Below, piece after piece: positions 27,961 through 63,729 of a stretch of 64,000 bases of DNA; the stretch's first letter is position 1, and each line of letters begins with the position of its first letter. The position numbers and the translations under genes were made by a program. The notes under the pieces are model-generated. The model was not told where the DNA came from. It made no database searches and saw only the letters and a list, made by a program, of their open reading frames with translations. Source of the DNA: Mesostigma viride (lineage: Eukaryota > Streptophyta > Mesostigmatophyceae > Mesostigmatales > Mesostigmataceae); the NCBI GenBank assembly GCA_009746045.1, contig RPFO01001781.1, forward strand, positions 1 through 64,000, written 5' to 3'.

Positions 27961-29775
27961 TAGCCAAAGGAACTTAGGTAATGCAACGAGGGAGGGAAGC
28001 TAAGCAAGGGAGGGGAGGAAAGCTACTAAGGGAGAGGGAGGAAAGCTACGGGCATTAAGCTATGGGATATGAAAGGGGAGGGGAAGGAAGCTAAAGGAAC
28101 TTAGGTAATGCAAGGAAGGAGGGAAGCTAAGAAAGTGAGGGGAGGAAAGCTACTAAGGGAGAGGGAGGAAAGGGAAGGGCATTAAGCTATGGGATATGGG
28201 AGGGGAGGGGAAGGAAGCTAAAGGAACTTAGGTAATGCAAGGAAGGAGGGAAGCTAAGAAAGGGAAGGGGAGGAAAGTTACTAAGGGAGAGGGAGGAAAG
28301 GGGAGGGAAGCTAAGATGGGAGGGGAGGGGAAGGAAGCTAAAGGAACTTCGGTAATGCAAGGAAGCCCCCAAGCTAAGAAAGGGAAGGGGAGGAAAGCTA
28401 CTTAGAAGGGAGAGGGAGGAAAGGGGAGGGAAGCTAAGGGATGGGAGGGGAGAGGAAGGAAGCTAAAGGAACTTAGGTAATGCAAGGAAGGAGGGAAACT
28501 AAGAAAGGGAAGGGGAGGAAAGCTACTAAGGGAGAGGGAGGAAAGGGAAGGGCATTAAGCTATGGGATATGGGAGGGAAGGGGAAGGAAGCTAAAGGAAC
28601 TTAGGTAATGCAAGGAAGGAGGGAAGCTAAGAAAGGGAAGGGGAGGAAAGTTACTAAGGGAGAGGGAGGAAAGGGGAGGGAAGCTAAGATGGGAGGGGAG
28701 GGGAAGGAAGCTAAAGGAACTTCGGTAATGCAAGGAAGCCCCCAAGCTAAGAAAGGGAAGGGGAGGAAAGCTACTTAGAAGGGAGAGGGAGGAAAGGGGA
28801 GGGAAGCTAAGGGATGGGAGGGGAGAGGAAGGAAGCTAAAGGAACTTAGGTAATGCAAGGAAGGAGGGAAACTAAGAAAGGGAAGGGGAGGAAAGCTACT
28901 AAGGGAGAGGGACGAAAGGGAAGGGCATTAAGCTATGGGATATGGGAGGGGAGGGGAAGGAAGCTAAAGGAACTTAGGTAATGCAAGGAAGGAGGGAAGC
29001 TAAGAAAGGGAAGGGGAGGAAAGTTACTAAGGGAGAGGGAGGAAAGGGGAGGGAAGCTAAGATGGGAGGGGAGGGGAAGGAAGCTAAAGGAACTTCGGTA
29101 ATGCAAGGAAGCCCCCAAGCTAAGAAAGGGAAGGGGAGGAAAGCTACTTAGAAGGGAGAGGGAGGAAAGGGGAGGGAAGCTAAGGGATGGGAGGGGAGAG
29201 GAAGGAAGCTAAAGGAACTTAGGTAATGCAAGGAAGGAGGGAAACTAAGAAAGGGAAGGGGAGGAAAGCTACTAAGGGAGAGGGACGAAAGGGGAGGGAA
29301 GCTCAGGGATGGGAGGGGAGGGGAAGGAAGCTAAAGGATCTTAGGTGCTGCAAGGAAGGAGGGAAGCTAAGAAAGGGAAGGGGAGGAAAGCTACTAAGGG
29401 AGAGGGACGAAAGGGGAGGGCATTAAGCTATGGGACATGGGAGGGGAGGGGAAGGAAGCTAAAGGAACTTAGGTAATGCAAGGAAGGAGGTAAGCTAACA
29501 AAGGGAAGGGGAGGAAAGCTACTTAGAAGGGAGAGGGACGAAAGGGGAGGGAAGCTCAGGGATGGGAGGGGAGAGGAAGGAAGCTAAAGGAACTTAGGTA
29601 ATGCAACGAGGGAGGGAAGCTAAGCAAGGGAGGGGAGGAAAGCTACAAAGGGAGAGGGAGGAAAGGGAAGGGCATTAAGCTATGGGATATGGGAGGGGAG
29701 GGGAAGGAAGCCATAGGAACTTAAGTAATGCAAGGAAGGAGGGAAGCTAAGAAGGGAGGGGAGGGGAGGGAAGCT
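27961..29775 (+). repeat. Polypurine tandem array with 373 bp higher-order period
   Basis: Plus strand almost entirely A and G with sporadic CTA/CTT. The basic unit is about 120-125 bases (GGAAGGAAGCTAAAGGAACT, then TAGGTAATGCAAGGAAGGAG). Three units form a higher-order repeat of 373 bases, seen from identical blocks at 28187, 28560 and 28933. Later units are diverged. Confidence 0.9.
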
Positions 29776-31110
29776 AGCGGCCCACATGCATCTCTCCCTC
29801 GACAAGGAACAAGCGCATGCACCCACCCACCCCACATGCACCCCTCCCTTTACAAGAAACAAGCATGTGGGCCCACCTACTGCAATGCATCCCTCCCTTG
29901 ATAAAGAACACACACATGCACCCACCCACCGCGCATGCATCCCTCCCTTGACAAGGAAGAAGCATGTGCACCCACCCCACCTGCGTCCCTCCCTTGACAA
30001 GGAACAATTTCATGCACCCACCCACCCACATGCATCTCTACCTTGACAAGGAACAAGAGCATGCACCTACCCACCGGGCATGCATCCCTCCCTTGACAAG
30101 GAACAAGCATGTGTACCCACCCACCCCACATGCATCCCTCCCTTTACAAGAAACAAGCACGTGAACCCACCTCATGCACAAGCATCCCTCCCTTGATAAG
30201 GAACAAGCACGTGCACCCACCCACCCCACATGCACCCCTCCCTTTACAAGAAACAAGCATGTGGGCCCACCTACTGCAATGCATCCCTCCCTTGATAAAG
30301 AACACACACATGCACCCACCCACCGTGCATGCATCCCTCCCTTGACAAGGAAGAAGCATGTGCACCCACCCACCCCACCTGCGTCCCTCCCTTGACAAGG
30401 AACAATTTCATGCACCCACCCACCCACATGCATCTCTACCTTGACAAGGAACAAGAGCATGCACCTACCCACCGCGCATGCATCCCTCCCTTGACAAGGA
30501 ACAAGCATGTGTACCCACCCACCCCACATGCATCCATCCCTTTACAAGAAACAAGCACGTGAACCCACCTAATGCACAAGCATCCCTCCCTTGATAAGGA
30601 ACAAGCACGTGCACCCACCCACCCCACATGCATCCCTCCCTCGACAAGGAACAAGCGCATGCACCCACCCACCCCACATGCATCCCTCCCTTGACAAGGA
30701 ACAAGCGCATGCAGCCACCCACCCCACATGCAGTCCTCCCTTTACAAGAAACAAGCACGTGCACCCACCTACTGCACATGCACCCCTCCCTTGACAAGGA
30801 ACAAGCGCGTGCACCCACCCACCCCACATGCATCCCTCGACAAGGAACAAGCGCGTGCACTCACCCACCCCACATGCATCCCTCCTTTGACAAGGAAAAA
30901 GCACGTGCAACCACCCACCCCACGTGCATCCCTCCCTTGACAAGGAACAAGCACGTGCACTCACCCACCCCACATGCATCCCTCCTTTGACAGGAAAAAG
31001 CACTTGCACTCACCCACCCCACATGCATCCCTCCCTTGACAGGGAAAAAGTGCGTTCACCCACCCACCCACACGCATTCCTCTCTTGACAACGAACAAGC
31101 ACGTGAACCT
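29776..31110 (+). repeat. ~51 bp minisatellite with ~394 bp higher-order period
   Basis: About 25 units of CATCCCTCCCTTGACAAGGA, then ACAAGCACGTGCACCCACCC and ACCCCACATG, with variants. A block of several units recurs about 394 bases later (CATGTGGGCCCACC at 29864 and 30258). Because the unit is near 51 bases (17 codons), frames stay open on both strands; that is a consequence of the period, not evidence of coding. Confidence 0.9.
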
Positions 31111-32459: not shown

Positions 32460-32891
32460 AGGCATACGACACAAAGTATACTTGCCGTAAAGTTTACGGC
32501 CCGTATACTTTGTGTCGTTTACGGTAGTAAATTTACTGCAGCATACGACACAAAGTATACGGGCCGTAAAGTTTACGGCCCGTATACTTTTTGTCGTATA
32601 CTAAAGTAAAATTTACTAAAGTATACGACAAAAAGTATACGGTAGTAATTTTTACGGCCCGTATACTTTTTTTCGTATACTAAAGTAAACTTTACTAAAG
32701 TATACGACAAAAAGTATACGGGCCGTAAAGTTTACTAAAGTATACGACAAAAAGTATACGGGCCGTAAACTTTACGGCCCGTATACTTTTTGTCGTATAT
32801 TGAAGTAAAGTTTACGTAACGTATACGGAGCCCGTATACGTTTACGGGCCGTATACGGGGCCCGTATACGTGTACGGGCCGTAAGTTTATA
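32460..32891 (+). repeat. Right GTATAC/TTTACGG arm of element I
   Basis: Repeated GTATACGACAAAAAGTATAC and its complement in alternating orientation, ending CCGTAAGTTTATA before the GTAC duplication. Several perfect palindromes of 30 bases or more are present. Confidence 0.8.
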
Positions 32892-36697: not shown

Positions 36698-36728
36698 TGT
36701 TACGGCGCGTAACAAACTGTGTTATTAC
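36698..36728 (+). repeat. First 31 bases of the Gyp1 5' LTR
   Basis: TGTTACGGCGCGTAACA through TGTTATTAC; identical to 11095-11125. Ends at the ATTAC target of Cop2. Confidence 0.88.
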
Positions 36729-37430
36729 AGTTAACGCCAAGCGCATTGGCGTGATCCTGATTCGGCATTTCTCTGCGATTCCAGCGGCACCGGAACGAGT
36801 TCATTCCGACAAGTATCAAGAAAGTTATGGCGTTCCGACTTCCCGGTCGCGCGCGAGCGCGAGCCGGCTGTTCTTCTAAGTCGGACGTGAATATTTGCCG
36901 ACGACATATGGGGTCGACAGTAATTCCTGGGCTGACAGGATTTAGGTGCTGAACCTACGACGGTATTGGATTAATACGTCGTACGCAGGAAATAGGAACC
37001 TTAACCTGTGGTCTGTTGGTACCGCAGGCCTACTAGTCCTGGACTTCTAGGTGCAGATGCAATAATCACTGTGGTGACTGTACTCTGTGGTCACTGTGCC
37101 TGTATGGCAGACCTACTGTATAGGATCTGGGCGCTGTACAGGTTGTGAATACTGTACTGGGAGTGTTAATACTGAGCAGGCCTCTTAGGCTGCTCAGGAC
37201 TAGCAAAGCACAGTGCACAAGTATATAAAGAATAGGCCAGTGCCAATTGGGCATCTCTTGCGAGCCCGCCTCACGTGTGTTGCCTTGACTTGGCAAACGC
37301 TTGTACAAGCCTCAAGTGTGTGAGCGCTGTAACATTATCCAATTTTAACAAAGCTCCGTTTCCAACCATATTCACACATTGCTGCATTGCAACCATATCC
37401 TTCACATTGCGTTTCATAAGAACGTTAACT
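36729..37430 (+). repeat. Cop2 5' LTR (702 bp)
   Basis: Starts AGTTAACGCC and ends AACGTTAACT, so the ends are a 7 base inverted repeat without the usual TG...CA. TATA box GTATATAAAG at 37221-37230. Boundaries are fixed by the ATTAC duplication and by the identical length of the 3' LTR. Confidence 0.9.
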
Positions 37431-37523
37431 CAAATTACAAACAGTCTCAACGGAACGGCCAGGAGGGTCGTTGCTGGTTGCGGTGTGCAGCGTTGACGAC
37501 GCGAGAAGCTCGTCCGGTGGTGA
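37431..37523 (+). other. Cop2 leader with presumed primer-binding site
   Basis: CAAATTACAAACAGTCTCAAC follows the LTR; it does not begin TGG, so the primer is unclear (possibly an internal tRNA site or self-priming). It runs to the first ORF. Confidence 0.4.
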
Positions 37524-38243
37524 ATGGTGCAGGAAGAACAACGGCAGCAGAATTTCCGGTTTCGGCAGTCTGCTGGGGGTTCAATTTCGCCTGAATTGCG
37601 TCGTGTCGTTCGAGATCTATCTTTATTGCTTGCAGATCGTCCACCTGTTAATCGCGGCTTCGTGCAATTCATCGACGACCAGGTCGAGGATTGGGAGCGA
37701 ATTCTGCGGCACGTCCAAACCATCGTCATTCCGGAGCACCGGAGCATCGACGACATCGAGCAAGAGCTTCACGGTTTGGTTGGCATCCAGACGGTGATTA
37801 CAGCATTAACTGAGCGGGTGCGTGCGGAGTTGGCGGCTAGGCGAGGAGAGGCTGCGGAGGCAGCTGGTGCAGTGCGACACGAGTTCGTGCCGGCAGCAGC
37901 GGGTGCAGGTGTACCACGTACTTTCGCAGGCGTAATCGGCGACGAGGGTGTTGCAGCGGGACCAGTTCGACGTGAACGACGCGGAGCGGAGCACTACAGG
38001 CGGCTTGCAGAGGTCGAGGCGGCAGCGGAAGCCATCACCGGAGGACAGCGTGCGGCACGAGTCGGCAGGTTTCCGGAGCGAGCAAAGGTTCCGTTTCAGG
38101 AACTGCCCCAACCCCTTCGCGTTCGTGTGACGCGTTTGGAAGAGTTTGCCCCTCTTGGCTATGATAGTGACCTTGAGGTGGGAGCAGTGGGCGTCGCTGG
38201 GCTAGGCGACGAGGCGCTTGGCGACCACGAGGTGCCAAGATAA
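37524..38243 (+). CDS. Cop2 ORF1, 239-residue protein of unknown function
   Basis: Open frame from ATG 37524 to TAA 38241-38243, between LTR and gag, where most copia elements have nothing. It is rich in Arg, Glu and Ala. Residues about 20-110 (RVVRDLSLLLADRPPVN, then IDDIEQELHGLVGIQ and LTERVRAELAARRGEAAEAA) look strongly helical, possibly coiled coil; the rest is Ala/Gly/Arg-rich. No catalytic motif, signal peptide or membrane segment. It could be an N-terminal part of Gag or a separate nucleic-acid-binding protein. It is separated from gag by 302 bases containing GACAGCGACAGCGACAGCGA. Confidence 0.55.
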   Translation: MVQEEQRQQNFRFRQSAGGSISPELRRVVRDLSLLLADRPPVNRGFVQFIDDQVEDWERILRHVQTIVIPEHRSIDDIEQELHGLVGIQTVITALTERVRAELAARRGEAAEAAGAVRHEFVPAAAGAGVPRTFAGVIGDEGVAAGPVRRERRGAEHYRRLAEVEAAAEAITGGQRAARVGRFPERAKVPFQELPQPLRVRVTRLEEFAPLGYDSDLEVGAVGVAGLGDEALGDHEVPR

Positions 38244-38545
38244 ATCCGCGGGGTGCCAACGACGGGTTGTCACCTGTCTACTATACTAACGGTGACGATT
38301 CTGTCATCGCGGGCCGACAGCGGGTCGACGACGGCGCAGCGGGTAGCAGGGTGCCAGAGCTGATTGTGGTGAGCGACAGCGACAGCGACAGCGACAAGGA
38401 GAACCAGGACGCGCCTGCGGGCGACCGTGGTGGTCTTGACTGAGTGGTAACACTTGGCATTTTCCTTTCTTGTTCAGTAGCTTATATTGCTTTAATTGCT
38501 GCTTGGCCACTTGGCTGGCTGTAGCAGATCTGAACAGAGGCCATC
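38244..38545 (+). other. Cop2 spacer between ORF1 and gag
   Basis: Contains a (GACAGC)n tract at about 38373-38396. No separate gene. A lost frame joining ORF1 to gag cannot be excluded. Confidence 0.4.
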
Positions 38546-39628
38546 ATGAGTGAGGGAGCTATTGACCAACAAGCGCGCCTTATGGGCTTTGCGCGGCGCG
38601 GCGCTGGGATGGATGGACGCGATGGACGCGGTGGACGCGATGGACGCGGTGACGGCCAGGCGCTGGGAGACCAGGCTGCGCTGCCAGATGATCAGAGCCA
38701 AGCATCGCAGGGCGGTCAGAACGCGCCAGCTGCAGATCAAGCGGCACCTAAGCGACCGACCGTGGCTGAGGGGTACACGGTGCTAGGCCAGTTTCAGTCC
38801 ATCAAGGACAATTGGCAGCCCCGGGACGCTGAGAGGATGTTAGAGGACATGAGCTTGTACACGGACATCTACACCGGTGACAAGCTTCGCATCCTGGCGT
38901 CTAGTGCCTACATAAGGCAGTCGGCGAGGCGGCTGTTCAAGTTTGTTCGGGAGCGACACACGGCGGGAGACACCTGGGCGGCGTTTATGACGCGACTCAG
39001 GGTGTTCCTGAGTGACAAGAGGACCATAGATGGGTCTCACCTGAAGCAAGAGTACCTGGACTACAAGCCCATCAAGGGGCAGCTAGTGGTCCACGCCTTT
39101 GAAGACTTCGTCAAGCTGAGGGAGGACGCCATGGCCAAGGGATTCTTCGTTGCAGATCGGATGGCCATGGGCGACTTTCTCAAGTCGCTGCAGCTGGATC
39201 CGGTCACCATGGATAATGTGACCATCCACATGCGACAGGTCCATGGCTGGGCAGCCATGACGGACCAGTTGTATGAGTGTTTCAGCGGCAAATACGTAGG
39301 TGGTAAGCGCCCACGTCAAGGGGACGAGGAGGCCGCTGAACCTGCGGTTAAGTCCATGAGGGGATCGGGCCACGGGGCCCAGCGTCCTCGAGAGGGCCTG
39401 AGGCCTCTTCAAGGGGTCGAGGAAGGTCCAGGAGGGGGCGTGACAGAAGGGCTGGACGGGGGACACCGCCGAAGTCGGGGCATCCACAGTCCCAGTTTGA
39501 CTTCAAGAGGGTGGGTGGTCCTCCCAAGGCTGGGCCCAGCAGTGGGACCTCACGGGACATCAGTCAGGTGGAATGTTATTTCTGCCAAGGGAAGGGTCAC
39601 TTCAGGAATGAGTGTCCCTCGTACCTGA
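38546..39628 (+). CDS. Cop2 Gag
   Basis: Starts at ATG 38546. Gly/Asp/Arg repeats (DGRDGRGGRDGRGDG, residues about 23-38) precede a helical capsid-like region (about 80-250) with KLRILASSAYIRQSARRLF, TWAAFMTRLRVFL and an AFEDFVKLREDAMAKGF helix. The tail after about residue 290 is out of frame: the -1 frame gives FDFKRVGGPPKAG and then the zinc knuckle CYFCQGKGHFRNEC (39577-39618). One missing base near 39435 explains this. Gag would package element RNA in cytoplasmic particles. Confidence 0.7.
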   Translation: MSEGAIDQQARLMGFARRGAGMDGRDGRGGRDGRGDGQALGDQAALPDDQSQASQGGQNAPAADQAAPKRPTVAEGYTVLGQFQSIKDNWQPRDAERMLEDMSLYTDIYTGDKLRILASSAYIRQSARRLFKFVRERHTAGDTWAAFMTRLRVFLSDKRTIDGSHLKQEYLDYKPIKGQLVVHAFEDFVKLREDAMAKGFFVADRMAMGDFLKSLQLDPVTMDNVTIHMRQVHGWAAMTDQLYECFSGKYVGGKRPRQGDEEAAEPAVKSMRGSGHGAQRPREGLRPLQGVEEGPGGGVTEGLDGGHRRSRGIHSPSLTSRGWVVLPRLGPAVGPHGTSVRWNVISAKGRVTSGMSVPRT

Positions 39629-39780
39629 GGCAGGAAGGTCAGAGCAAGCCAGCTCAGGGGGCAGCAAGGACAAGGCTGGTCCATCCCAGGATAAGGGCAA
39701 GGGCAAAGCTGCTGATCATTGACTTAAGCCTGCACACATCCCTGTACCCTGGAGGGTGCCCCCAGGGGTGTGTAATGTAG
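39511..39780 (+). CDS. Cop2 Gag C-terminus with CCHC zinc knuckle
   Basis: Frame -1 to gag. It contains CYFCQGKGHFRNEC, a perfect C-x2-C-x4-H-x4-C nucleocapsid knuckle that binds element RNA. Basic residues follow (RTRLVHPRIRARAK). It belongs to the gag ORF at 38546 and is not a separate gene. No protease motif (D-T/S-G) follows in any frame up to the integrase, where copia elements normally have one. Confidence 0.75.
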   Translation: MGGPPKAGPSSGTSRDISQVECYFCQGKGHFRNECPSYLRQEGQSKPAQGAARTRLVHPRIRARAKLLIIDLSLHTSLYPGGCPQGCVM

Positions 39781-40253
39781 CTGCTAGTGACGGCAGTGAG
39801 GGGCAGCCCCATGCTCTAGTGACAGAGCCTATTGGACACGATGGGGCAAGCTTGGTTACCACAGAGAGTATGCCAGCTGTAGCTGCAGTGGTTACTCGCC
39901 AACGTGCCCGCCATGGCGGTGCTGAGCCTGAGGTAGGACCTGGTGATGTGGACCCAGGTGGATCTCAGAAGCATTCTGACCGTGCAGGACTGGCACAGGA
40001 TGGTCAGGATGAGGATAGGGCTGGAGACAGTCTGACAGGCACGACCCTGGTGCCTCCTGTACATAAGGGATCTGTACATACCTTGAGTGCTAATAATGAC
40101 AATAAAAGATTTTCTCTCTTGTATGACATTGCCTCAAGGTTGCATACCATGTTTGGCCATGCAGCTCAGTCTTTGCAAGTTGCTAGACGGCTGGGAGAAG
40201 TGAGTTGTACTCCATCTGCCAACAGGTTGCTCAAGCTTGCAAGTGCAGGCTAG
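39756..40253 (+). pseudogene. Cop2 linker and integrase zinc-binding (GAG-pre-integrase) region
   Basis: Another -1 frame step. An acidic, low-complexity linker (EPEVGPGDVDPGG) leads to LYDIASRLHTMFGHAAQSL. This matches the H-x3-5-H start of the GAG-pre-integrase finger (LWHxRLGH in other copia elements). The expected Cys pair appears in the next frame (VAQACKCRLVARKPKQ, about 40235). Fragmented by frame breaks. Confidence 0.5.
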
Positions 40254-40515
40254 TTGCTAGAAAGCCCAAGCAGTCTCATGCCAGGACTCCTATTTTGCAG
40301 CCAGGCCATGTGCAGGTAGATATTCAGAGAATCAGGGGTTTGAAGCTGCTGGTGGCAGTGGACAGATATACCAAGTACAAGACCCTAGAGATCCTGCCTG
40401 ACATGGAGAAGCCTACATTAATTGCTGCTCTGAAGTTGACAAGGAGCAGGTACCCTGGGTTGGAGTTGTTGCAGTGTGACATTCAGTTTGAGTGCTGTGA
40501 GAATGTTAAAGGCAT
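40205..40515 (+). pseudogene. Cop2 integrase core, first part (D,D)
   Basis: Integrase inserts the cDNA into chromosomes. After CKCRLVARKPKQSHART come VQVDIQRIRGLKLLVAVD (catalytic Asp at 40319) and LELLQCDIQFECCENVKG (second Asp at 40478). The reading frame stops soon after 40516, where a GT begins an insert. Continuing at 43146 after removal of 40516-43145 restores an in-frame integrase with the third residue Glu at 43249 (GQQGVVERA). Confidence 0.7.
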
Positions 40516-41017
40516 GTGTGATTATTATGGGGACTTAAATTAATAATTTGTAGGTGGTGAATCATTGCCGACTTAAGCGTCAGGAGCCAGGAAATTTTTT
40601 TATTACGTCCATGTGGTGTGGCTTTCCATGGCTACCTCAAGGTAGCGTGTACATTGGTAATTATGGTAGGTGAGTGGTGGCGGCGGCCCGGCCTGGTATG
40701 CGCATGGGCCGACAATGGGTCGATAACGACAGCTGGTATGTTGGAACATGGTGCATGCGCATGCATGACTCGGTACGGCATGGTATGACATGCACATGAC
40801 ACAATACTATAATCTGGTGAAGATAGTGACCAATGGTCCTAGTGCCATTGTACAACTTGGCACATAGTCATAGTGTCCGTTCACGTAGGACAAATCCCAC
40901 TTAGGTACTACTATCCGAGCATATCTATTTGTTAATTAGGGCTCGAATACAGTTGCCCGTATTATAGATTTCTGCACGGTCAGCATAATGGGCATATTCA
41001 AGACAGGATTCTTGACA
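40503..41017 (+). repeat. Cop2 internal direct repeat A (515 bp)
   Basis: Nearly identical to A' at 42667-43179 (differences: a CGGC deletion and two added bases near the start). Both contain the GT...AG insert plus a few flanking bases of integrase on the left and 34 on the right. Because integrase sequence is included on both sides, A and A' are not LTRs of a nested element. Confidence 0.85.
40516..40983 (+). other. GT...AG insert in the Cop2 integrase (introner-like candidate)
   Basis: 468 bases starting GTGTGATT and ending CGGTCAG, flanked by CAT on both sides (GGCAT | GTGTG...GTCAG | CATAATGGG). Removing it joins GGC-AT to C-ATA-ATG in frame and yields a continuous integrase text (NVKGIIMGIFKTGF). 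The inside has stops in all forward frames. It may be a spliceosomal intron created by insertion with a 3 base target duplication, or a plain mobile insertion that happens to have these ends. No terminal inverted repeats. Confidence 0.5.
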
Positions 41018-42666
41018 CCCTCCTTGCACATGATGCTGTCTATAAATACAAACGCTAGATCCTGGGCGAGGGTAGTCGGGTACCTAAGTGGATTCCCTCC
41101 TTACACGACACCCTGGTCTTGATATAAAACAGCAAGAAAAATGAAGGCAAGGTTGTGTAGCCCCATATTGTCACATGGAGTGCGCCACACGAGGGTGGAG
41201 CCAAACTGGAAACAGGCTCTTAAACTGTAAAGACTGGTTGCTCAGTGTTGAGTCTGGATGCAGACTGTAGCCGGTACTGGTTGATGCCAGGGTTGCAGCT
41301 GGAAACGTTGGGTACTGGTAGCTGCTGGTAAACCGGTGACGTCAGCTGTTGTGTGTGCACACACGATCTATGCTGTGTGTGGGTACAGTGTCTTGTGTGG
41401 TGCTCAGGTAGTGCTACTTTGACTTGTTTGCCAACAGGTTTTGATGCAACTTACTGCAACTACTACAAGGTGAACTGTGACGTGAGGATGTAGAGCTGGT
41501 TGCTGGACTGCTACTTGCTAGCTAGACAAGTGCGTGCAGCTGACTGCAGCTACTATCTACTCTACGCCTGTGGTGGAGAGTCATGCATGTGCTGCTGGGT
41601 GCTACTACTTCTCCTTGCTGGCTAGGCAAGTGTGGGTAGCTGCCTGCATGGACTATGCAGTGTACTCTGTTCCTGCTGGTGTTGCCTGCTGTGCTTGTTG
41701 ATGCCAGTGTGATGGTGCTGATGGGACTGTGCTGTTACTGCTGCTTACATTATGGGGCAACTGGTTGCTAGTGGGTGTCTAGTGCTGGCACGTGATAATG
41801 CAACTAGCTGTTACTGCTGCTAGTGGTGCCTGCAACTAGTTAAATGTGGCTGAATTATAAAACTGCAACTAGTGCTGAAAACAACGTGGGGGTTAGTGAG
41901 CACCCTCCTTAGTGTGGTGTGCAGCTGTGTCAGCAGGCTGGCCTTGAGAGCAGGACCCAGGGAATGTTCCCTTTTTTCTTGGAAACTTGGAGCATGGCAG
42001 GCTCTGGGCTCTTGAAGTGATGACCGTTTAAAAAGAATTCCGGTTTAAAAGAATGCGCCCAAAAGAATGTTGATGCCACGCGAAATGGTGCCGGTACAGA
42101 AAGAAAGACCGGTTCTCATGAAAAATTCTTGAGGTAAACAGCTCCGCCGATTTCTCGTCGATGCTCACAGCTCGCGCGGCTCAGTGGGAGCCCGTCAGTG
42201 ACCCCGCGCCGATTGAACGCACTGCACTCGGCCAAAAATGTGCTGCCAGGTAAAAAATCACTGGCGCTGCCTGGAACCAGAGCCGGCACCTTTTGAGTGC
42301 CAGGCTTCAGTGCCGACGTCCCCATCACCGAAATGTTGGCGTTTGATCAGTTTCGGGCATATATAAGTATAAAAGCGTAGATCTGGCCTGCGCACCGGAG
42401 CTTGGGAAATTCTTGACGGATTTTAGCAACGGTAGGTGTCACCCCGAATATTTGGTGTTACCACACATTGAAGTAAGTCGATTGAAAACCTTGAATTTCA
42501 CGGTAGCATCTGCGCCATAATCATGGTCGTATCAAGTACAAGAATTCGACCAAGCTGCTCCGTATATGAAAATATAAACTATGATCAAGGCGCTCAATAA
42601 AATGTGAGCTGCCGCTTAGAGGTTGGTTAATTCCGTTGAAAGATCTTGCCCCGGACCTCCGATGCC
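41018..42666 (+). other. 1.65 kb foreign segment between the A repeats
   Basis: No similarity seen to the rest of Cop2. It holds TGCTGCTACT/CTGCTGG-rich low-complexity sequence (41430-41900) and, near 42355-42375, TATATAAGTATAAAAGCG, a promoter-like stretch. No supported coding. Its presence between duplicated integrase pieces suggests repair-associated insertion or recombination between two Cop2 copies. Confidence 0.45.
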
Positions 42667-43179
42667 ATGTTAAAAGGGCATGTGTGATTATTATGGGGAC
42701 TTAAATTAATAATTTGTAGGTGGTGAATCATTGCCGACTTAAGCGTCAGGAGCCAGGAAATTTTTTTATTACGTCCATGTGGTGTGGCTTTCCATGGCTA
42801 CCTCAAGGTAGCGTGTACATTGGTAATTATGGTAGGTGAGTGGTGGCGGCGGCCCTGGTATGCGCATGGGCCGACAATGGGTCGATAACGACAGCTGGTA
42901 TGTTGGAACATGGTGCATGCGCATGCATGACTCGGTACGGCATGGTATGACATGCACATGACACAATACTATAATCTGGTGAAGATAGTGACCAATGGTC
43001 CTAGTGCCATTGTACAACTTGGCACATAGTCATAGTGTCCGTTCACGTAGGACAAATCCCACTTAGGTACTACTATCCGAGCATATCTATTTGTTAATTA
43101 GGGCTCGAATACAGTTGCCCGTATTATAGATTTCTGCACGGTCAGCATAATGGGCATATTCAAGACAGGATTCTTGACA
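42667..43179 (+). repeat. Cop2 internal direct repeat A' (513 bp)
   Basis: Second copy of A. It carries its own GT...AG insert (42682-43145, 464 bases) and runs into the intact pol ORF. Confidence 0.85.
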
Positions 43180-45993
43180 GAGAACCTGCCAGAGTTTCCA
43201 GAGTTGCTGATTACACCCAGGGAGAGCCACGGCCAGCAAGGGGTGGTGGAGAGAGCCATCCAAGAGATCAAGACCGTGCTGCTGGTGGAGAGGATTCCAA
43301 GGACGTCATCTGCCATTGTGACATCTGCATGGCTACGTTCTGTGGAGGATAGGCTGAACCTCAGGACTCCCATGTTCTTTGGTGACATTGCCATCAATCC
43401 TCTTATGCTGCATACCAGGATGCTGCCAGCTGATGCTGAGCAGGCATGGAAGGAGAAGCTAGAGGCCAAGTTCCTCAAGCTGAGGCAGAAAGACAAGGGC
43501 TGGAGTGTCCTAGAACCTAACGTTGGACAACAGGTTGTTGTGTGGAAGGAACCAAGCTTTCCAGGGAAACGTGGCAGCTGGCATGATGGGGTGGTGACCC
43601 GAGTAGAAGCCGCTGGCCATAAGTGCTGGGTGGCCATTGATGGCTCCCAAGCAGTGCACCGTCTGTCCTGGTCAAAGATCCGTCCCCGGGGAGGTAATCA
43701 AGGAGGCCTCTTCCAGGTGCCCGTTGGTGTACAAGGCGGGGGTGACGTGGAACTTCCTGATCAGGGTGCTACAGCTGTATCGAGCCCTCAGGGTGACCCT
43801 GGCCCGGCCCCTGGGGTAACTTCACATACGGTGGTTGGGCAAGCAGGCGGACAGTCTGCACCTCCGGAACGGCCCGACACCAGGCCTAGGGGTGTGCGTC
43901 TATCAGATATTGTACAGGCTTTGCAAAGAGCCAAGAAGGAGCCTAAGGTGTCCAAGCTTGTCCAGTTGGATGAACCTGAGGTAGCTGCCATGGAGATAGA
44001 TACCAATGCACAGGTTTCTGTCATGGGACCTCAGCATACAGGAGAACTGCTGGTCGGAGAACCAAGTTGCCCCTGGGTGTCTGATTTCAGTGGTAGGACG
44101 CATCTAAGGGTGTTGGGAGAGGTTACTGCCCCTGTCATGGGTGTGGATGTGACCTTCCTTGTCCTAGAGGACTATGATGGCCCTGTGATTTTGGGTCAGA
44201 ATTTTCTGGGCAATCCTGGGATTTCTATCAGAGCTACAGCTCTGAAAAGAGATGGCTGGGGGATGATTCCCCTAGAAAATTTCAGGACAACATTTCCAAT
44301 CAGGTGCAGGGCCAAGCCGGTCAAGGGTGTAAAATGGGATGAAGGGGAGGTGCCCCCAGCAGCCAGTTTGGTGATCCCAGCTGTGTTGCACCCCAGCAGT
44401 ATTGGCATAACTCACAGGAGCCTTGCTGCACACTCTCCTTTGACATATGACCAGCTAGTCCAAGAGATGAGCTCGCCTACTTTGTTTGAGGCTTGGAAGC
44501 TCGCCTTCTCCAAGGCATTGGAGGAGTGGTTGCAGTTTGAGTGTGCTGCACCAACAGACAGACGTCCCCCAGCATCAAGGAAGCTGGCTTTGAGATTTGT
44601 GCTGAAGAGGAAGGTTGTGGATGAGGTATCAGTGCCCCATGTCAGGCCTGTCCTGAATGAGTATCACGGCACGGGGAGTCTGCCAGGAGAGGAGCTGTAC
44701 ACGCCAGGGATGTTACACGACACATGGAGAATTTTGCTATGTCTCTACGTGGGGTTGCTGAACAGGGGAGCAGCTATGTCATCAGTGCTGCTGGACTTCA
44801 AGAGGGCATTTTTAAAATCTGATCCAGAAGTGGCCAGGAGGGTGTGGAAGCAGGATGAGCCTTACTGTGTTGAGGTGCCTGCCATCTGGAAGCTGGAGCT
44901 GCATCAACAATTCCTGGTTATTCTGAAGGGCCTGGAAGGACTCAGGTCGAGCCCAATCATCTGGAGGCTCACGCTGCAGGAAGCTCTGATCAGTGAGTGT
45001 GGCTTGAGAGTGTCTTCAGTTGATCCCTGTTTGCTGCTGGCCCAATGGGAGGGTCTGCCAGTGTATGCTAGTTTGCATGGAGATGATCTGCATTTGCTAG
45101 CCCCCACGACCTGGCTGAAGAAGTTTATTCCTGTCATCAGTGGCGAGTTTTCACTGGGCAAGGAGCTGTGGCAGGAACCCAACAAGCCTGTAGTGTTCTG
45201 TGGAATGCAGGCTACCCTGTTCAGGAGGGATGGGGAGTGGAGTATCAGGCTTCAGGCTGGAGGAGATTATAAACAGACCATTGTGAAGGCCTTGCCAGAG
45301 AAGATCACCCAGGCTGCAGGACCTGAGTTGAGAGGCATGTGGGCCTGGTTTGCCAGCATCTGTGGTCCGTCTTTGATGGTCCATAGCAGAATGCCTGATG
45401 AGGTGCTTGAGGATGAGAAGCCTCGAGTCATAGCCCGGTTGGTGGAGAGTACCCCTGATCTGATTTTGTCTGGGATTGACTTTGCCCAGCCTATCACCTT
45501 GGAGATCTTTGTTGACAGTTCCATGGATGCTCGCCAGGTTACCAAGGTCAGGGGGAGATCTGCTGCTCTGTTTGCTTTTTATCAGAGCAGGGCAAGTTTG
45601 TTCAGCTGGTACAGCAGACTGCAGAAGAGGGTCTGTATCAGTTCAGATGTGGCAGAATGCAGGGCCATATGCGAGGGGATCCAGTCCAGCTTGTACATAA
45701 AGGAGTTAATGCTGGAGCTGGCTTCAGTTACCCCTTGGACCTTGCAGATGGAGACGTTGTTGCTAACAGACAGCATGGGTATGGTCCAGTTTGTTCACAA
45801 GCAGCTGGCCAGAAGCCGGGACCTGGATTATTTGTTGCTGAAGGAGTTGGCCAGTTTGGTTGACTTGAAGCATATCCCTGGCGAGGAGAACCCTGCTGAT
45901 GCATTGACCAAGCTGCCACACAAGGCCCCAGCCCAGTACAATGTACTGAGGAAGCTCATGAATGCTGACTGTCAAGTCGGTCTATCTGTCTAA
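43150..45993 (+). CDS. Cop2 Pol: integrase C-terminus, retropepsin-like domain, RT and RNase H
   Basis: 947 residues, fully open; the ATG at 43150 is probably internal to integrase. Order: integrase catalytic Glu34 (GQQGVVERA); an SH3-like integrase C-terminus at about 120-180 (VGQQVVVWKEPSFPG, then WHDGVVTRVEAAG); a retropepsin-like domain at about 270-375 with MEIDTNAQVSVM (Asp284, Asn286 where Gly is usual) and PVILGQNFLGNPGISI (346); RT at about 450-760 with LDFKRAFL (Asp549) and LHGDDLHLL (Asp645-646); RNase H with VDSSMDA (Asp789), AECRA (Glu836), LLTDSMG (Asp874) and HIPGEENPADALTKL (His908). The protease position between integrase and RT, and DTN, are unusual. Likely produced as part of a Gag-Pol fusion. 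Confidence 0.88.
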   Translation: MGIFKTGFLTENLPEFPELLITPRESHGQQGVVERAIQEIKTVLLVERIPRTSSAIVTSAWLRSVEDRLNLRTPMFFGDIAINPLMLHTRMLPADAEQAWKEKLEAKFLKLRQKDKGWSVLEPNVGQQVVVWKEPSFPGKRGSWHDGVVTRVEAAGHKCWVAIDGSQAVHRLSWSKIRPRGGNQGGLFQVPVGVQGGGDVELPDQGATAVSSPQGDPGPAPGVTSHTVVGQAGGQSAPPERPDTRPRGVRLSDIVQALQRAKKEPKVSKLVQLDEPEVAAMEIDTNAQVSVMGPQHTGELLVGEPSCPWVSDFSGRTHLRVLGEVTAPVMGVDVTFLVLEDYDGPVILGQNFLGNPGISIRATALKRDGWGMIPLENFRTTFPIRCRAKPVKGVKWDEGEVPPAASLVIPAVLHPSSIGITHRSLAAHSPLTYDQLVQEMSSPTLFEAWKLAFSKALEEWLQFECAAPTDRRPPASRKLALRFVLKRKVVDEVSVPHVRPVLNEYHGTGSLPGEELYTPGMLHDTWRILLCLYVGLLNRGAAMSSVLLDFKRAFLKSDPEVARRVWKQDEPYCVEVPAIWKLELHQQFLVILKGLEGLRSSPIIWRLTLQEALISECGLRVSSVDPCLLLAQWEGLPVYASLHGDDLHLLAPTTWLKKFIPVISGEFSLGKELWQEPNKPVVFCGMQATLFRRDGEWSIRLQAGGDYKQTIVKALPEKITQAAGPELRGMWAWFASICGPSLMVHSRMPDEVLEDEKPRVIARLVESTPDLILSGIDFAQPITLEIFVDSSMDARQVTKVRGRSAALFAFYQSRASLFSWYSRLQKRVCISSDVAECRAICEGIQSSLYIKELMLELASVTPWTLQMETLLLTDSMGMVQFVHKQLARSRDLDYLLLKELASLVDLKHIPGEENPADALTKLPHKAPAQYNVLRKLMNADCQVGLSV

Positions 45994-46721
45994 AAGCTGA
46001 GAGCTGGGTGCTTAAGTCTCTGGATATCAGGCTGGGAGCTTGATTGTACATAATCCTGAGCACACCTTGAGGGGTGAGACATGTCTCTGGTGTGGGAATG
46101 TCTGACATTGTCTCTGATGGAGAGATGTCTATCTGGGGTTTTCATCTCAGTCTGAGGTTTCCCCAGATCTGTGGTTTGTGGGCGGGGTTCGATTCCCTGG
46201 TGCCGTCTTAAGGCGGAGTTTCACGGACTGGCTGACCCATCCACCATGCTGGTGAGGTGGCGACAGGTCCCCTGATTTTCCACGGTTGGAACGAGTATAG
46301 GAGCTTGTGTTTGCATGTGCTTCGCGTAGATGTTGTGTCTGGTTCGATAAGGGGCAGCAGACCGGCGCCGACTCCCGTCTGGGGGTCAGCAATGTTTTCT
46401 GATGAGCTGTTGTGGGTGATCTGTGGGGTTTCGCCTAAGGTCCTGAAGGTTGTACATACTTCTCAAGTTCTTAGCTGAACACCTATGGGCTGCCACAGTT
46501 GGCCAACCTCTTGTACATGGGTAACACAACGAGCCTCCCGTAAAGGGATAGGGACTCATTGTAATTTGTTTGTGCTCCTGAACCAGTATGGGTGCTATGT
46601 ACATAGAATAAGGAATCCAAGCTGACTGTCATGCCCAGTGGGTTGTGACTTGTAGTCGGGGAGGATGTCCAGTACCCATTGTGTGTGTTTGTATGTAGAC
46701 TTGTGTGAGCTGCTACAGCTC
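45994..46721 (+). other. Cop2 3' untranslated region
   Basis: No gene supported between the RNase H stop and the PPT. Short frames lack any family resemblance. Confidence 0.6.
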
Positions 46722-46739
46722 AAGAAAAGAAAGGATTGG
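46722..46739 (+). promoter_or_regulatory. Cop2 polypurine tract
   Basis: AAGAAAAGAAAGGATTGG directly before the 3' LTR (AGTTAACG). Confidence 0.8.
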
Positions 46740-47441
46740 AGTTAACGCCAAGCGCATTGGCGTGATCCTGATTCGGCATTTCTCTGCGATTCCAGCGGCA
46801 CCGGAACGAGTTCATTCCGACAAGTATCAAGAAAGTTATGGCGTTCCGACTTCCCGGTCGCGCGCGAGCGCGAGCCGGCTGTTCTTCTAAGTCGGACGTG
46901 AATATTTGCCGATGACATATGGGGTCGACAGTAATTCCTGGGCTGACAGGAATTAGGTGCTGAACCTACGACGGTATTGGATTAATACGTCGTACGCAGG
47001 AAATAGGAACCTTAACCTGTGGTCTGTTGGTACCGCAGGCCTACTAGTCCTGGACTTCTAGGTGCAGATGCAATAATCACTGTGGTGACTGTACTCTGTG
47101 GTCACTGTGCCTGTATGGCAGACCTACTGTATAGGATCTGGGCGCTGTACAGGTTGTGAATACTGTACTGGGAGTGTTAATACTGAGCAGGCCTCTTAGG
47201 CTGCTCAGGACTAGCAAAGCACAGTGCACAAGTATATAAAGAATAGGCCAGTGCCAATTGGGCATCTCTTGCGAGCCCGCCTCACGTGTGTTGCCTTGAC
47301 TTGGCAAACGCTTGTACAAGCCTCAAGTGTGTGAGCGCTGTAACATTATCCAATTTTAACAAAGCTCCGTTTCCAACCAAATTCACACATTGCTGCATTG
47401 CAACCATATCCTTCACATTGCGTTTCATAAGAACGTTAACT
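46740..47441 (+). repeat. Cop2 3' LTR (702 bp)
   Basis: Matches 36729-37430 with about three substitutions (for example GACGACAT/GATGACAT, GGATTTAGG/GGAATTAGG). Followed by ATTAC (47442-47446), the duplicate of 36724-36728. TATA box at 47232-47241. Confidence 0.92.
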
Positions 47442-48040
47442 ATTACGGCCGTAAATAGAGGCCTTACGTTCTTGGTAGCCTCAGCTACTCCGAAACAATC
47501 CGTGGTTACGGCTGTTGTCGTTCCTACGTTTACGTGCGGTTAGGACCCTTTTGACTGGTTGTTACCTGGTCCAGTGACATATCAATTGTTCAGTATTGTG
47601 GGCCGGTGCAGTCGTGCCGCGCTGCGTACTTTAGGGCCTGGACCGTTGGCACTCTGTGTGGTCTGGACCAGCGCCACCCCACGTGGCATTAGAGTGCGTA
47701 GATCTAACCTACCTGTGATCGTACGGGCGAGGGCCATGTTTGGCCCGAGCACGCACGAGTCTGTCGGCCAATTTAGGTGTTGCAATTTCCTTGTGTTGAC
47801 AGTTCGACCTTTGATATGGCTTGTTATAGCTAGTCGAACCATGGATGTACGTTATTGCCAGTAATGTCTAAGTAAATGTGTCCATTGCTTAGTATGGAAA
47901 CAATTATCGGAAAGCATTAGAGTCGGGAGTTCAACGATCTTTCAAAATGCAGAACAGGGTTCCTTCTTCTACCAGGTTAGTTAGTCTAGGACAGGTTAGA
48001 TCCTGGGGTCGAGGTAGAGTAGAAGAACCGGGTCGTAACA
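47442..48040 (+). repeat. Gyp1 copy 2, 5' LTR remainder
   Basis: Continues the LTR after Cop2, from the repeated ATTAC to GGGTCGTAACA. A PBS (TGGTAATCGAGG) follows at 48042. Confidence 0.9.
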
Positions 48041-57454: not shown

Positions 57455-58510
57455 ATGGCAACCACCAGATCTGCTACGGCAGCCGCCGCTGCTGCCGCCG
57501 CTGCCGCTGTCACAGCCAACAACGCATATGAGGAGGAGCTGGCCGCTTCTCTCGCTTCTGCTACCCGCGACCTAGGCGCTCATGCTATGTTGCCCCCGGG
57601 TGAGGCGGGTACGGGTCCGCCCGGCGCTCGGCTGGCCGCCGGCCCGGGCTTTGCGTCGTATGACGAGTGTAAAGCTCTTTTGCGCGATGTTCGGTCGGTT
57701 CCTGCCTTTGATGGCAGGGACCATCTCCACTTTCCATCCTTTTTGGATCATTTTACTGCGCACGTCGACCTGTTTCCCGGGCTCCTTGATGTACTCGAGG
57801 GCCGTCGGCATGACGAGCCGCTCGACCGCCTGTTGTACGTGGCTCTGCTGGGCCGCCTGGCGGGAGACGCCAAGGAGCGCGTGCGCCTCCTGGCCCCGGA
57901 GCAGCACCGCGGGAGCGCCGCCATGGCGGATTTAGTCGAGCGCTACCGCGATTCAAAGGTCACCGAGTTGTTGCGGTTGTCCCTCCGCAAGCAGCTGTCG
58001 CAACTTGCACAGGCTTCCCGCGAGGGTGTCGACCCGTACCTTACCCGGTCGGAGCTCCTCTACGCACGGGACCAAGTCGCCCATGTAGACCTCCCTTTGG
58101 AGGTCTTCTTGGCCAGCGTATTGAGTGGCCTTCGTGCCGAGTACCGGGCGCTAGTGGTAGCTCTGCGCCTGGGGGCGGAAACGACCATTGCTGGTCTCCG
58201 TCACCGCCTCCTAGAGGTGGAGGACCTCCTCACCGGCGGCTACCTCGCGCCCGACGCCCCGGCCTCTGGCCAGGCCTTTCACACCTCCGGCCGGGGCGCG
58301 GTCTGGGGCGGGCGGGCGGCCGCGGTGGCCGCGGCAACGGCGACGGCAATTACGGCACCGGCCCGGGCCACAGCAACGGCAATGCCGCCAACACTGGGAG
58401 GGGCCGTGGGGGGCGCGGGGGGCGCGCTGGCCCTCACTCTGGTGATCGAGGTGGTGGCAGTGGGGGGGGGGCAATGGGCGGGGCCGCGGGCCCCCTTGCC
58501 CGGTCTGTGA
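57455..58510 (+). pseudogene. Cop3 copy 2 Gag (extra frameshift)
   Basis: As 13070-14449, but one G is missing in GGCCGGGGCGC (near 58296; five G in copy 1). The Gly/Arg box is therefore read as Ala/Val/Thr text from residue ~282 on. The G10 break is present as well. Confidence 0.72.
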
Positions 58511-59357
58511 TAAGCCGGGTCATACCGTCAACACGTGTTGGACGAAGTACCCTGCCCAGCGTCCCTCCCACGTCCGTGACGGCAACTCCGCGCACGCTAA
58601 CCACACCGCGGCAGATACTCCTCCGCCTCCTCCGGTGGATCCGACGTACGCCTATGCCACTGGCGCTGGCTACGGGTCCTCTCCTCTTGGCCGGCCGATC
58701 CAGCATCTGCGCCCTGGAGGGGGCCTCCAGGCGTGTGCCACAGAGGCCCTGGCGTCTCGCTGCCCAGCTGCCGCATCGCCGACAGCTCCTGCGCAGGAAT
58801 GGGTCATTGACAGCGGCGCGAGTCGCCACATGACGCCCCATCTCGAGGACTTTGGCCCCGGTCTGTCACATGAGGCGCAGCTGCCCATTACTGGCTCAGG
58901 TGGCAACATGACGGCTCACGGCTGGGGGGCTGTGAACCTGAGGCTGGGATCCCACGTGATCCCGCTGTATGACTCCCTTTACGTCCCGGCCCTTCACGCG
59001 CGATTGCTGTCCGTTCATGGGTTACTGGCTGCCGGACATCATGTGGATTTTGCGGCCTGCAGCATTACTTTCCAGGAGCACGGTCGTGCTGTCAGCTTCC
59101 CACTAGAAGCAAGGGACGGCTTCTACCTCCTATGCGCCCCGGCTGACTACGTCCTGGCGACGAAGGTCCAGGCTGAAGAGGAGATGAAGTGGCATCTCCG
59201 CCTGGGTCATGTAAGCCGCAACCGCATCGCCCGCCTGCAAGCCATCCCGGACTCCGGCATGTCTGTGCCGGCGGGCCCTGCGGCGCCCCTCTGCCCTGCC
59301 TGCCCGGCTGGGCACATGCGCAAAAAGAGAGAGATGAATCGCGGTTTTCTGCATTAA
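58446..59357 (+). pseudogene. Cop3 copy 2 Pol, truncated and fused to F-R sequence
   Basis: Contains the CCHC knuckle, protease (WVIDSGASRHM) and GAG-pre-integrase (WHLRLGHVSRN). After CPACPAGHMR the frame enters F-R and stops 12 codons later. No integrase core. Confidence 0.78.
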
Positions 59358-59992: not shown

Positions 59993-60636
59993 GGAAATAT
60001 TTGCGGCGGTAGGCCCTGGGAGGCCGAGTCGAAATATTTGTGGATTTCTATGTTTGGGGAGGCCGGTAGGCCAATCGAAATAGAATTACGGCGTGAGGCT
60101 GGGAATAGCCGAGTCGTAATTAATCGAGTCACCTCGGTAACGAGCGGTGTGTGCGGAACGCCGGATTTCCCACGCGGCCAATTTTTAGTTTAAGTAATGC
60201 AATACGGCATTTACTTTTGCATACTTTGCAAGTATGCAAAAGTAATGCGTATTGCATTATAACTACTTTCTAGAAATTTTACGCGCAGGAGACTGTCAGT
60301 GCTACAGCGATGTGATGAGGGCTCAGAGCCTACAAAATCCCTGTGTCCGCGGTGCCCTACTCCCCCCATGCTGAAGCTGGCCGATGTGTGCGCCATGGTT
60401 GTGTAGGTAGATTGCCTGCATGCAAGGGAAACAATGCGTTATCCAGCAAATAGCAGCAAAGGGAACACACAACGATTTGTAATGAGATGAAAACCCGACG
60501 CCTTGACGCGCCGAAACGTTGCATACCGTAAATCAGTTGTGGTAATTGAGCGGCGTGAGAAGCACAGCCAGTCGGCGCTGGCTGTTGTGAAGTGATGGCT
60601 TGATTTTTGGACCGAGAAAGTGAGATAAGTGGACAG

Positions 60637-60665
60637 AGAAGAGAGAGAGGAGAGAGGAAGGAGAG

Positions 60666-60700
<35 letters not shown>
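60637..60700 (+). repeat. (GA)n microsatellite in F-R
   Basis: Interrupted GA tract, mirror of the (CT)n at 21173-21221. Confidence 0.9.
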
Positions 60701-60702
<2 letters not shown>

Positions 60703-60920
60703 CCTGGTATTCTCAACCTAAACTGTCCCCTATGTACTCACAAGATGTAAGGGAACTGCGAAACCACAGGAATACCTAGAGAAGAGCGCTTCCTTGCTAC
60801 ACGAAAAACTCGCCGATTGAAGTGCTTGAGCGTTCAGTTTGATAATGCTGAACTGCTTAATCAAATCATCTGCGTTATCAAATCAATCATCTGGCAGAGT
60901 CAACGTCCCACTTGGTTGGT

Positions 60921-60956
60921 GCCGGCCCGCTACAAAAAAAACGTAGCGGGCCCGGT
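60921..60956 (+). other. GC hairpin in F-R
   Basis: GCCGGCCCGCTAC and GTAGCGGGCCCGG around an A-rich loop; mirror of 20928-20960. Confidence 0.65.
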
Positions 60957-62732
60957 GATGTCGCCTATTTACACCACCCCGACTTTACATGCGAGTCACT
61001 GTGAATGATATATATATGGCTGCCTACAGCCACCGCGCATGGTGTCGCAAGTAAAATAGGCGCTGCCAAGGCTGCGTACCTGCCCGTTATCGCCTTGGTC
61101 TTGGTCACGGTTCTCCAATTCACGTGCAACGTCCACTTCCTGTGCCAGCTCCTGGCGGCGGCGCGTGCCCTTCGGTGCTGAATTTCAATTTCCGCGTGAG
61201 TCCGTTGGAGAGGGGCGCTGCGTCCGGAGTCCGGACTTGGGGAAATTCGGAGGCTGCTGGTCGCACAAAAGATCGTTGTTGGCTTGTTGAGTGTGTCCGA
61301 CTGGCACGATGGAGAGGGCTCGCAATCACATTGGGCGACCTCACCAGTGGCCCACATGTACCGACGAGACCTGCATCTCGAGTTGTCGGCCCTCCACGCT
61401 GGCGAGCTGTCCTGCCATGCGAGACGCCGCTGAGACTCTCGGACAATAATTTTCCCCCGTGCAATATCACGCCCTCAGGATTCGGCAAGGCCCGTCTGCT
61501 CCAATATGGCCCGACTGCGGGTTGCCGTAACAGGAAAATGTCCGGGTGATGGCAGGCAGGCCTAACCCACCCACCGCAACGCACCGCGTCAAGCATATAT
61601 TTCCACTTCCGCTGCTGCGGGCACGCGGGCTACTGCCTACATTTCTTCAATCCGCTCGCATAGCCTCCTCATGGTGCCTCGCTCCCTGCGGCCTCCTCCG
61701 CCACGTCATCCCGGATATCCATTGCAATCAAGCCTACCGGCTACCACCAATACCGGCCACGAGCCCTCTGCTTGGCACAAACGAAGTGTGCGGCCTCCGA
61801 ATTAAGTGAAGTACAAAGCGGCAGGACTGGGAACCACCTGAAATTACATCGGGGTCTCCAGTGAACTTGGCGTCACATCTTGCTAACGTTGGTCCACTGT
61901 CGGCAGTTGTCAGTTGCTGTTGGTTGTTGGCATGCTGAGGGTTGGCAGAATGTTCTAGGAACAGCTGGTCGCAATGTTGCTATGCATGCAGTACTCTTGC
62001 CATTACGTGTGTCCGTGTGCCCTCCACCATCACCGCCACAAGCCAGCACCCTCCACCCGCTAACTCCCACTCGCTCCCACTCCCTGCCTGTTCCTACCCG
62101 CCCGCACCCACAAATATAGACGTCACAGACATCCCATGCCGTTATCCATCCCCCGCACGTCTGACTACGGACTACTCTCGCCCCCCACGCTGAGGTCCCC
62201 CACACAACCTTAACACCGCCCTCTCGCTCACCCCAAACCATCCGATGACCCCCCGACCATCCACCTTGAGTCCCCCTCAAATCCAACCTATCTGACTACC
62301 ACCCTTCCGTATTACATAACACCACCCTTCCACACCAACATAACAAACCACCTAACTAAACAAACCTACCGCCCCACTAACGAGGTTCCCCTACAAACCA
62401 CTGCACCCGCCTACCCCGCGCCACCCCGCTGCCCCAACATAACGTGACTCACCCCACCCATCCACGTGAAGCATAACGCATCCACCTCCACCCCGGCCCT
62501 CCGGGAGCCAACCAATCAGCTGTCCACTCAAACCATAATGACACTGCTGCATACGCGACCACCGGCAAGCCGCCTAACGTACCATACCCAAGCCACCCAG
62601 CCGGGCAACCCAAGCAGATCCCAAAACCCTCACACGACCTGTGACCTACGCAAACGAGCTACCTACACTGCGACTCACAACTACTACATAATCAAACCCA
62701 TAACAATGTTCCCCATGACCCCCGCCAAAGGG

Positions 62733-62790
62733 GGGGGGTCCCCCCAATTAGTCCAACAACAACACACACCACACACACACACACACACTC
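62733..62790 (+). repeat. Poly-G and (AC)n tract in F-R
   Basis: Mirror of 19177-19231; shorter than in F-L. Confidence 0.85.
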
Positions 62791-62899
62791 TACAATACAT
62801 CAGGACCACGAGTACCCACCCAATTCACCTCCCAACAACGGTATTCACACCACGAGTGCAGTGCCCCACCCATGTCCACAGCGACACCTCGCGGAGATT

Positions 62900-63235
62900 T
62901 CACCAAGCCCACCTGACTGCACGCACGCACACGCTAGCTGCACCACTCCCACGCACCTAACCCTCGCACACGCACACGCCTGCACGTCAGCATCAACCCA
63001 CTCCACCAAAGGCCACGCCTGCACAACAGCGCCATGCACAAGTGCACGCGCAACACGCACACATACTGCACACTCTCACGCACCCACTCACGTCACGCAC
63101 GCCTGCAAAAAGTCCCCCATCAACCACCCCCAAGCACGCCTGCAACAAACGCACTCATGCATCAAACTGCACGGCACTCGCCCACGCACGCACACCTAGC
63201 TGCATCGCTGCACAAGTCACGGCAATTGCATGGCA
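62900..63235 (+). repeat. AC/GC-rich minisatellite in F-R
   Basis: Complement of 18755-19062, with CACGCACGCC and CACGCCTGCA motifs repeated imperfectly. Confidence 0.7.
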
Positions 63236-63729
63236 GCATGCCGCTTCTATTCATTCTTAGGAATATCATGTTGCATATGGCATTATTATCATGGTTGTAA
63301 ATTTAATCACTCCTTGCTTTCTGTATGCATATTCTTCTTTGGGGGATGACTGATGCAGATTGTGGACAATACAAGATCGACGCAGAAAGACGTACACATC
63401 AATTGATGAAACCACCGTTGCTGGGCTTGGCAATGCCAGCTGTTATATGGCCATGAGCCATCAGTGCTTAACCAATCCAGAAATAGGATGAGAGCAGTTT
63501 TGAGTCGTGTTTATATATTTTTGATGGTAATTGAAATGATGAGTCTAAGAAAAGCCACCAATGAAACATAGTTTCATTACCATCAAACAGCGTGATCCTA
63601 TGAATGCCACGCCTATACCACACAAGATGCTGCTAATATTATTTAATTCATTAATTGAATTGTATGGATTTATTGCATATGGTGTTATGTTGTTAGAATA
63701 CACATTTAATTCTGGCAATGGCATGCCTG

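Follow-up and report, generated by a model that had tools for sequence, protein, structure and literature searches.

The window considered here, a 64,000-nucleotide stretch of contig RPFO01001781.1 from Mesostigma viride (Streptophyta), holds a copy of Cop2, a retroelement with long terminal repeats (LTRs). Its pol comprises, in this order, an integrase, a protease-like block, a copia-type reverse transcriptase (RT) and an RNase H-like part. We consider it probable that Cop2 belongs to a lineage in which a constrained ILG-type protease, devoid of the glycine of the catalytic triplet and most likely catalytic, replaces the LLS type. An earlier note on this DNA had started from the open reading frame (ORF) at 43150-45993, which is indeed present and encodes the second part of Cop2 pol (947 amino acids, aa) with the DTN and ILG block; its residues 1-10 (43150-43179) are the LTR end of a nested element and do not belong to Cop2.

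The window copy is damaged. The nested element (40504-43179) sits inside the integrase and splits it, and the gag and integrase frames are both interrupted besides this insertion. Such breaks could favor the view that the domain order is an accident of the insertion or of a single degenerate copy, to which we give virtually no credence because uninterrupted copies and divergent families show that order too. The first of these grounds led us to reject an artefact of the nested insertion. The genome searched is an assembly of 439,911,974 bases, in which 48 of 9,655 candidates found with Cop2 were scored, 47 of them being other Cop2 copies with 99% identity and stop-free open frames of 1160-1229 aa. 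For instance, the pol frame of copy L002 (760-4314; 1185 aa from the first start codon, 1196 aa from the stop) contains a spacer, the HHCC motif, a D/D/E integrase, an SH3/Agenet-like stretch, a linker, the DTN block, RT and RNase H. The order integrase, protease, RT and RNase H is found in Cop2, in a second family, Cop1, and in the database protein P0001, and not the copia order, in which the protease stands before the integrase. The motif D-T/S-G was not found in ORF1, gag or pol of Cop2, in gag or pol of Cop1, in P0001, or in the three plus-strand frames of 39577-40500, and the idea of such a protease concealed elsewhere in gag, ORF1 or pol was rejected on the basis of this motif scan. Thus, the proposal that a protease-like block follows the integrase and that none precedes it agrees with what is seen in several divergent families. 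A protease between gag and integrase in intact relatives, the finding that would have spoken against this proposal, was looked for and not seen in Cop2, Cop1 or P0001; across uninterrupted copies and families the order is kept and the triplet lacks glycine. A whole-pol search of Pfam and the PDB returned no useful match. Elsewhere in the window, conventional copia parts (13070-15831 and 57455-59357) carry DSGA, LLS and Pol_BBD before rve, and provide a control for the usual order.

P0001, the single protein that the first database search returned, is 62-63% identical to Cop2, with the same order and the same EIDTNAQVSVM. Cop1 is 31% identical to Cop2 and alike in domain order; the genome search for it yielded 6,516 candidates, of which 105 were scored. 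Copies of this family contain, in sequence, a zinc knuckle, an integrase, an SH3-like stretch, the block IDTQAQVSVI...NTLLGEPF, RT and RNase H. A codon pattern for RT, with 115 matches in the genome, led to Cop3, which shows, in one frame-broken copy and two shorter pieces, an integrase, a VDTNAEVSVM block and then RT. In Cop4, to which a Mesostigma protein belongs, an integrase C-terminal-like stretch is followed by a VDTNSQVSVI block and the start of RT. Cop1b (L038, DTQ) and Cop1c (L084, DTE) were read around the protease only. The EukProt protein P0003, labelled Mesvir1 (from Mesostigma viride), shows 100% identity over 414/414 residues at G000:C2134; a dinoflagellate or a red alga as host, an idea based on composition alone, was dropped in favor of this match. 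The assembly also contains a RuBisCO large subunit of green type.

The RT matches the RVT_2 model with E-values of 1.3e-5 to 1e-4 for copies of Cop1, 3e-7 for P0005, about 2e-4 for both P0003 and P0004, and 0.014 for P0001, all matches in the lineage falling below the cut-off of 31.6 bits. Cop2 itself has no RVT_2 match, and aligns to RVT_2-matching relatives at 56-74%. Motif C of RT, which usually has the form YxDD, is HGDD in Cop2, Cop1, Cop3, P0001, P0003, P0004 and P0005. Two transcript proteins of the dinoflagellate Prorocentrum lima, P0004 and P0006, also fall in the lineage. P0006 contains the second half of the protease with RT immediately after it, while P0004 and P0003 share 86% identity over 277 aa, a likeness that may reflect contamination or horizontal transfer. 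No relative was found when viral contigs and genome contigs were searched with the pol alignment or when phage records were searched, and a single-sequence protein search with Cop1 gave none at E 1e-3.

In the window, EIDTNAQVSVM contains the codons for Asp (43999-44001), Thr (44002-44004) and Asn (44005-44007), and the ILG codons of PVILGQNFL lie at 44188-44196. Across the eight protease families, the third residue of the triplet is Asn in Cop2, Cop3a, Cop3b, Cop4 and P0001, Gln in Cop1 and Cop1b, and Glu in Cop1c; glycine occurs in none (0/8), and Asp and Thr are invariant. VS, V.DFSG, two further Gly, E.Y.G, LG and a few more positions are also invariant, and all eight have ILG or LLG, the hydrophobic-hydrophobic-Gly feature of clan AA. 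In the genome, 1,022 places (522 + 500) match a DNA pattern for DT-x-AQV-S/T/R-V, against 2 for the reversed control; consequently, DT-x-AQVSV recurs above chance. Every match listed has Asn or Gln, and the same pattern with a Gly codon has no match in the genome. A wider pattern, with a third codon starting with T or G, was found in two places, Cop1c (DTE) and one that is apparently due to chance, with 157 for the reversed control. All eight conventional PF13975-type proteases read from the same genome are DTG.

The protease-like domain is under purifying selection. The ratio of nonsynonymous to synonymous substitution rates (dN/dS) is 0.10-0.23 in 9 of 11 family pairs (Cop1/Cop1b 0.10-0.13, Cop1c/Cop1 0.13, Cop1c/Cop1b 0.15, Cop1c/Cop2 0.22, Cop2/Cop3a 0.18, Cop2/Cop3b 0.23, Cop3a/Cop3b 0.16, Cop4/Cop3b 0.22, Cop4/Cop1 0.15) and higher in two (Cop4/Cop2 0.47, Cop2/Cop1 0.53), all of these values being rough because dS is about 1 or more in every pair. 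Between Cop2 and Cop1, identity is 38% in the protease, 33% in RT and 28% in the integrase, so that the protease is not the lower of the three. The D-T-N triplet is as unusual as had been noticed, but the accompanying suggestion of a dead protease, in the sense of a decayed window copy, is unsupported, since the eight families have a non-Gly triplet in common and the domain is under selection.

A different proposal is that the domain is a pseudoprotease, which keeps the retropepsin fold for folding, dimerisation or substrate binding after its activity was lost with the glycine, maturation being carried out by a host protease or needless. The replacement of Gly in all eight families fits this proposal, as does the near absence of tolerated changes at the triplet Gly of HIV-1 protease, whose D25, T26 and G27 are, in the available part of PMC13098228, among the positions with 15 or more null-like substitutions. 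Nevertheless, the active-site Asp, Thr and hydrophobic-LG loop are invariant in all eight families down to about 35% identity, and nothing seen would need them in a dead enzyme. On balance we regard a pseudoprotease as unlikely and a catalytic domain as reasonably likely.

That the block has a retropepsin fold is moderately supported. PF13975 matches six of the eight proteases, with a best value of 4.5e-4 and all below the curated cut-off, and nearly the whole profile is covered in P0001, Cop1b and Cop1c; PF12382 and PF13650, further aspartyl-protease models, match Cop1c. A template-free AlphaFold model from six family rows had a predicted local distance difference test score (pLDDT) of 67-82 in blocks 31-100. 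With this model, the best Foldseek match was the human DDI1 RVP domain, 9 of the 31 matches listed being retropepsins, and with VIA-align all 50 listed matches were retropepsins. A model of the Cop2 protease from four rows was unusable, and the Foldseek list obtained from it was likewise without result. The BFVD list is weak (best E 0.10), with caulimovirid, bracovirus and retroviral protease entries mixed with phage entries, and a PDB profile search with the protease alignment gave one chance match only.

Some of these results weigh against a retropepsin, and would suit a conserved domain from a different source, similar in DTx-A and LG only by coincidence. No profile match reaches the curated cut-off, hhalign and hmmsearch comparisons with eight local retropepsins gave scores that were not above shuffles or sliding windows, and DUF6898 matches Cop3a at 0.0018. 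However, three different aspartyl-protease models match, one of them nearly in full in three families, the template-free model retrieves retropepsins, and the distance from triplet to LG is 65 in Cop2, P0001 and Cop1. Hence, a non-retropepsin origin appears improbable.

Known elements are arranged differently. According to the available part of PMC2774666, the integrase is downstream of the protease in all known Ty1/copia genomes, none of the five integrase positions known in LTR retroelements is gag-integrase-protease, and LLS is kept in copia proteases with very few exceptions, ILG predominating elsewhere. In crustacean, red-algal-related and diatom copia elements the order is the usual one, according to the available parts of PMC3587641 and PMC2806351. 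The Cop2 lineage shares with Ty1/copia (Pseudoviridae) an RVT_2-type RT, an integrase before RT, 5-bp target-site duplications (TSDs) and a CCHC gag; in contrast, it has the protease after the integrase, a Gly-less triplet, ILG or LLG, LTR ends AG...CT and the RT motif HGDD, and D-T-N/Q/E with ILG or LLG is seen instead of the LLS-type D-S/T-G protease. GalEa copia elements, found in red algae too, are alike in their copia RT and zinc-finger integrase, but have the standard protease-integrase-RT order and Gly in the triplet; a variation of DSGA of the DTG type, DTGC, is noted in the available text of PMC3587641. Gmr1-type Ty3/gypsy elements and the caulimovirid PVCV are similar in that the integrase position can change; nevertheless, the integrase follows the protease in Gmr-1 and precedes gag in PVCV, neither being gag-integrase-protease as in Cop2 (PMC2774666, same part). 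ILG retropepsins of clan AA (Ty3/gypsy, DDI1 and retroviral proteases; PF13975) resemble the Cop2 block in DT and ILG at a retropepsin-like distance, a flap-like FSG and the predicted fold, and differ in their third triplet residue, which is Asn, Gln or Glu in the Cop2 lineage. No description of a gag-integrase-protease order was found in the literature searched, as judged from titles and the starts of abstracts. The claim of an undescribed lineage is to this extent sustained, as the searches made gave no described match; ORF1, also adduced for it, lacks a Pfam match and does not itself mark the lineage. The published Mesostigma viride genome has 60,339 LTR elements, as given in the available part of PMC6947507.

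Features of Cop2 and related elements in the window (coordinates in nucleotides).
Feature	Position	Strand	Basis
Cop1 RT part, second family, cut off by contig start	1..1191	+	34% identity to P0001 over 381 aa; RVT_2 1.3e-5
Cop2 5′ TSD, ATTAC	36724..36728	.	repeated at 47442-47446
Cop2 5′ LTR, 702 bp, AGTTAAC...GTTAACT	36729..37430	+	direct repeat with 46740-47441, 3 mismatches
Cop2 ORF1, 239 aa, without Pfam match	37524..38243	+	ORF list, Pfam search
Cop2 gag ORF, 360 aa, last part out of frame in window copy	38546..39628	+	frame compared with L003
Cop2 zinc knuckle CYFCQGKGHFRNEC	39574..39615	+	zf-CCHC 1.9e-5 in L002, 7.8e-5 in L003
UGA between Cop2 gag and pol	39720..39722	+	same frame either side in L002-L006
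Start of Cop2 pol: spacer, HHCC, first two catalytic Asp of integrase; frame broken here	39756..40503	+	ORF list, alignment
Nested LTR-type element, foreign to Cop2	40504..43179	+	LTRs 40504-41017 and 42668-43179; TSD GAGAA
Remaining Cop2 integrase (catalytic Glu 43249-43251) and SH3/Agenet-like stretch 43564-43689	43180..43761	+	alignment; Agenet 0.059 in window copy, 0.0058 in L002
Cop2 retropepsin-like block: DTN 43999-44007, flap-like DFSG 44083-44094, ILG 44188-44196	43978..44295	+	sequence, alignment, model
Cop2 copia-type RT, motif C HGDD 45076-45087	44536..45435	+	alignment with Cop1, P0001; RVT_2 in relatives
Cop2 RNase H-like part	45436..45966	+	position and alignment only; without Pfam match
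Cop2 purine-rich tract 5′ of 3′ LTR	46722..46739	+	read from sequence
Cop2 3′ LTR, 702 bp	46740..47441	+	direct repeat with 36729-37430
Cop2 3′ TSD, ATTAC	47442..47446	.	matches 36724-36728

The LTR ends of Cop2 (window 36729-47441), AGTTAAC...GTTAACT, are perfect inverted copies of each other over 7 bp; the termini are AG...CT and not the TG...CA of copia elements, as the earlier note had remarked. A 5-bp TSD was present in all three Cop2 copies read at both ends (ATTAC in the window copy, GTGCG and CGTTG). The nested element has LTRs of 514 and 512 bp with TG...CA ends, and a long coding ORF was not seen in it. As for gag, the zinc knuckle previously placed at 39577-39618 does exist, but lies 3 bases away and, in the window copy, in a different frame from the gag ORF; in L003 both are in a single frame. 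There, gag including the knuckle closes with one UGA, after which pol continues without a change of frame. This UGA also stands 5′ of pol in L002, L004, L005 and L006, the upstream sequence of L005 not being gag-like. Since gag and pol are one frame split by UGA, Gag-Pol of Cop2 is probably produced by stop-codon readthrough. In Cop1 (L029), unlike the single in-frame UGA of Cop2, the gag frame differs from the knuckle-pol frame.

Other features of the window include an inverted repeat of about 3.8 kb with 91% identity (18019-21584 and 60262-63990), an extreme skew at 28001-30000 (GC skew 0.56, AT skew 0.56, plus strand purine-rich) and many overlapping self-complementary matches at 32464-32827.

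The combination of a copia-type RT, ILG and a new order suggests that the protease was replaced from another source. An ILG-type clan AA domain may have been inserted between integrase and RT, taking the place of the LLS-type protease that copia elements have between gag and integrase, and its triplet would have lost the glycine to become D-T-N, D-T-Q or D-T-E. The resulting protease most likely still dimerises and would cut Gag-Pol with an unusual active-site loop. The fuller version of this account, in which a retropepsin from a second source now works as an aspartic protease with an Asn, Gln or Glu side chain in place of the triplet glycine, perhaps with a catalytic role, is put forward tentatively. 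The order gag-integrase-protease would be a sixth integrase position in LTR retroelements, and the lineage would provide a case of a protease module relocated and exchanged inside such an element. The triplet glycine is treated as near-universal in aspartic proteases and as a residue whose substitution HIV-1 protease does not tolerate; abundant, constrained natural D-T-N, D-T-Q and D-T-E domains make its role directly testable.
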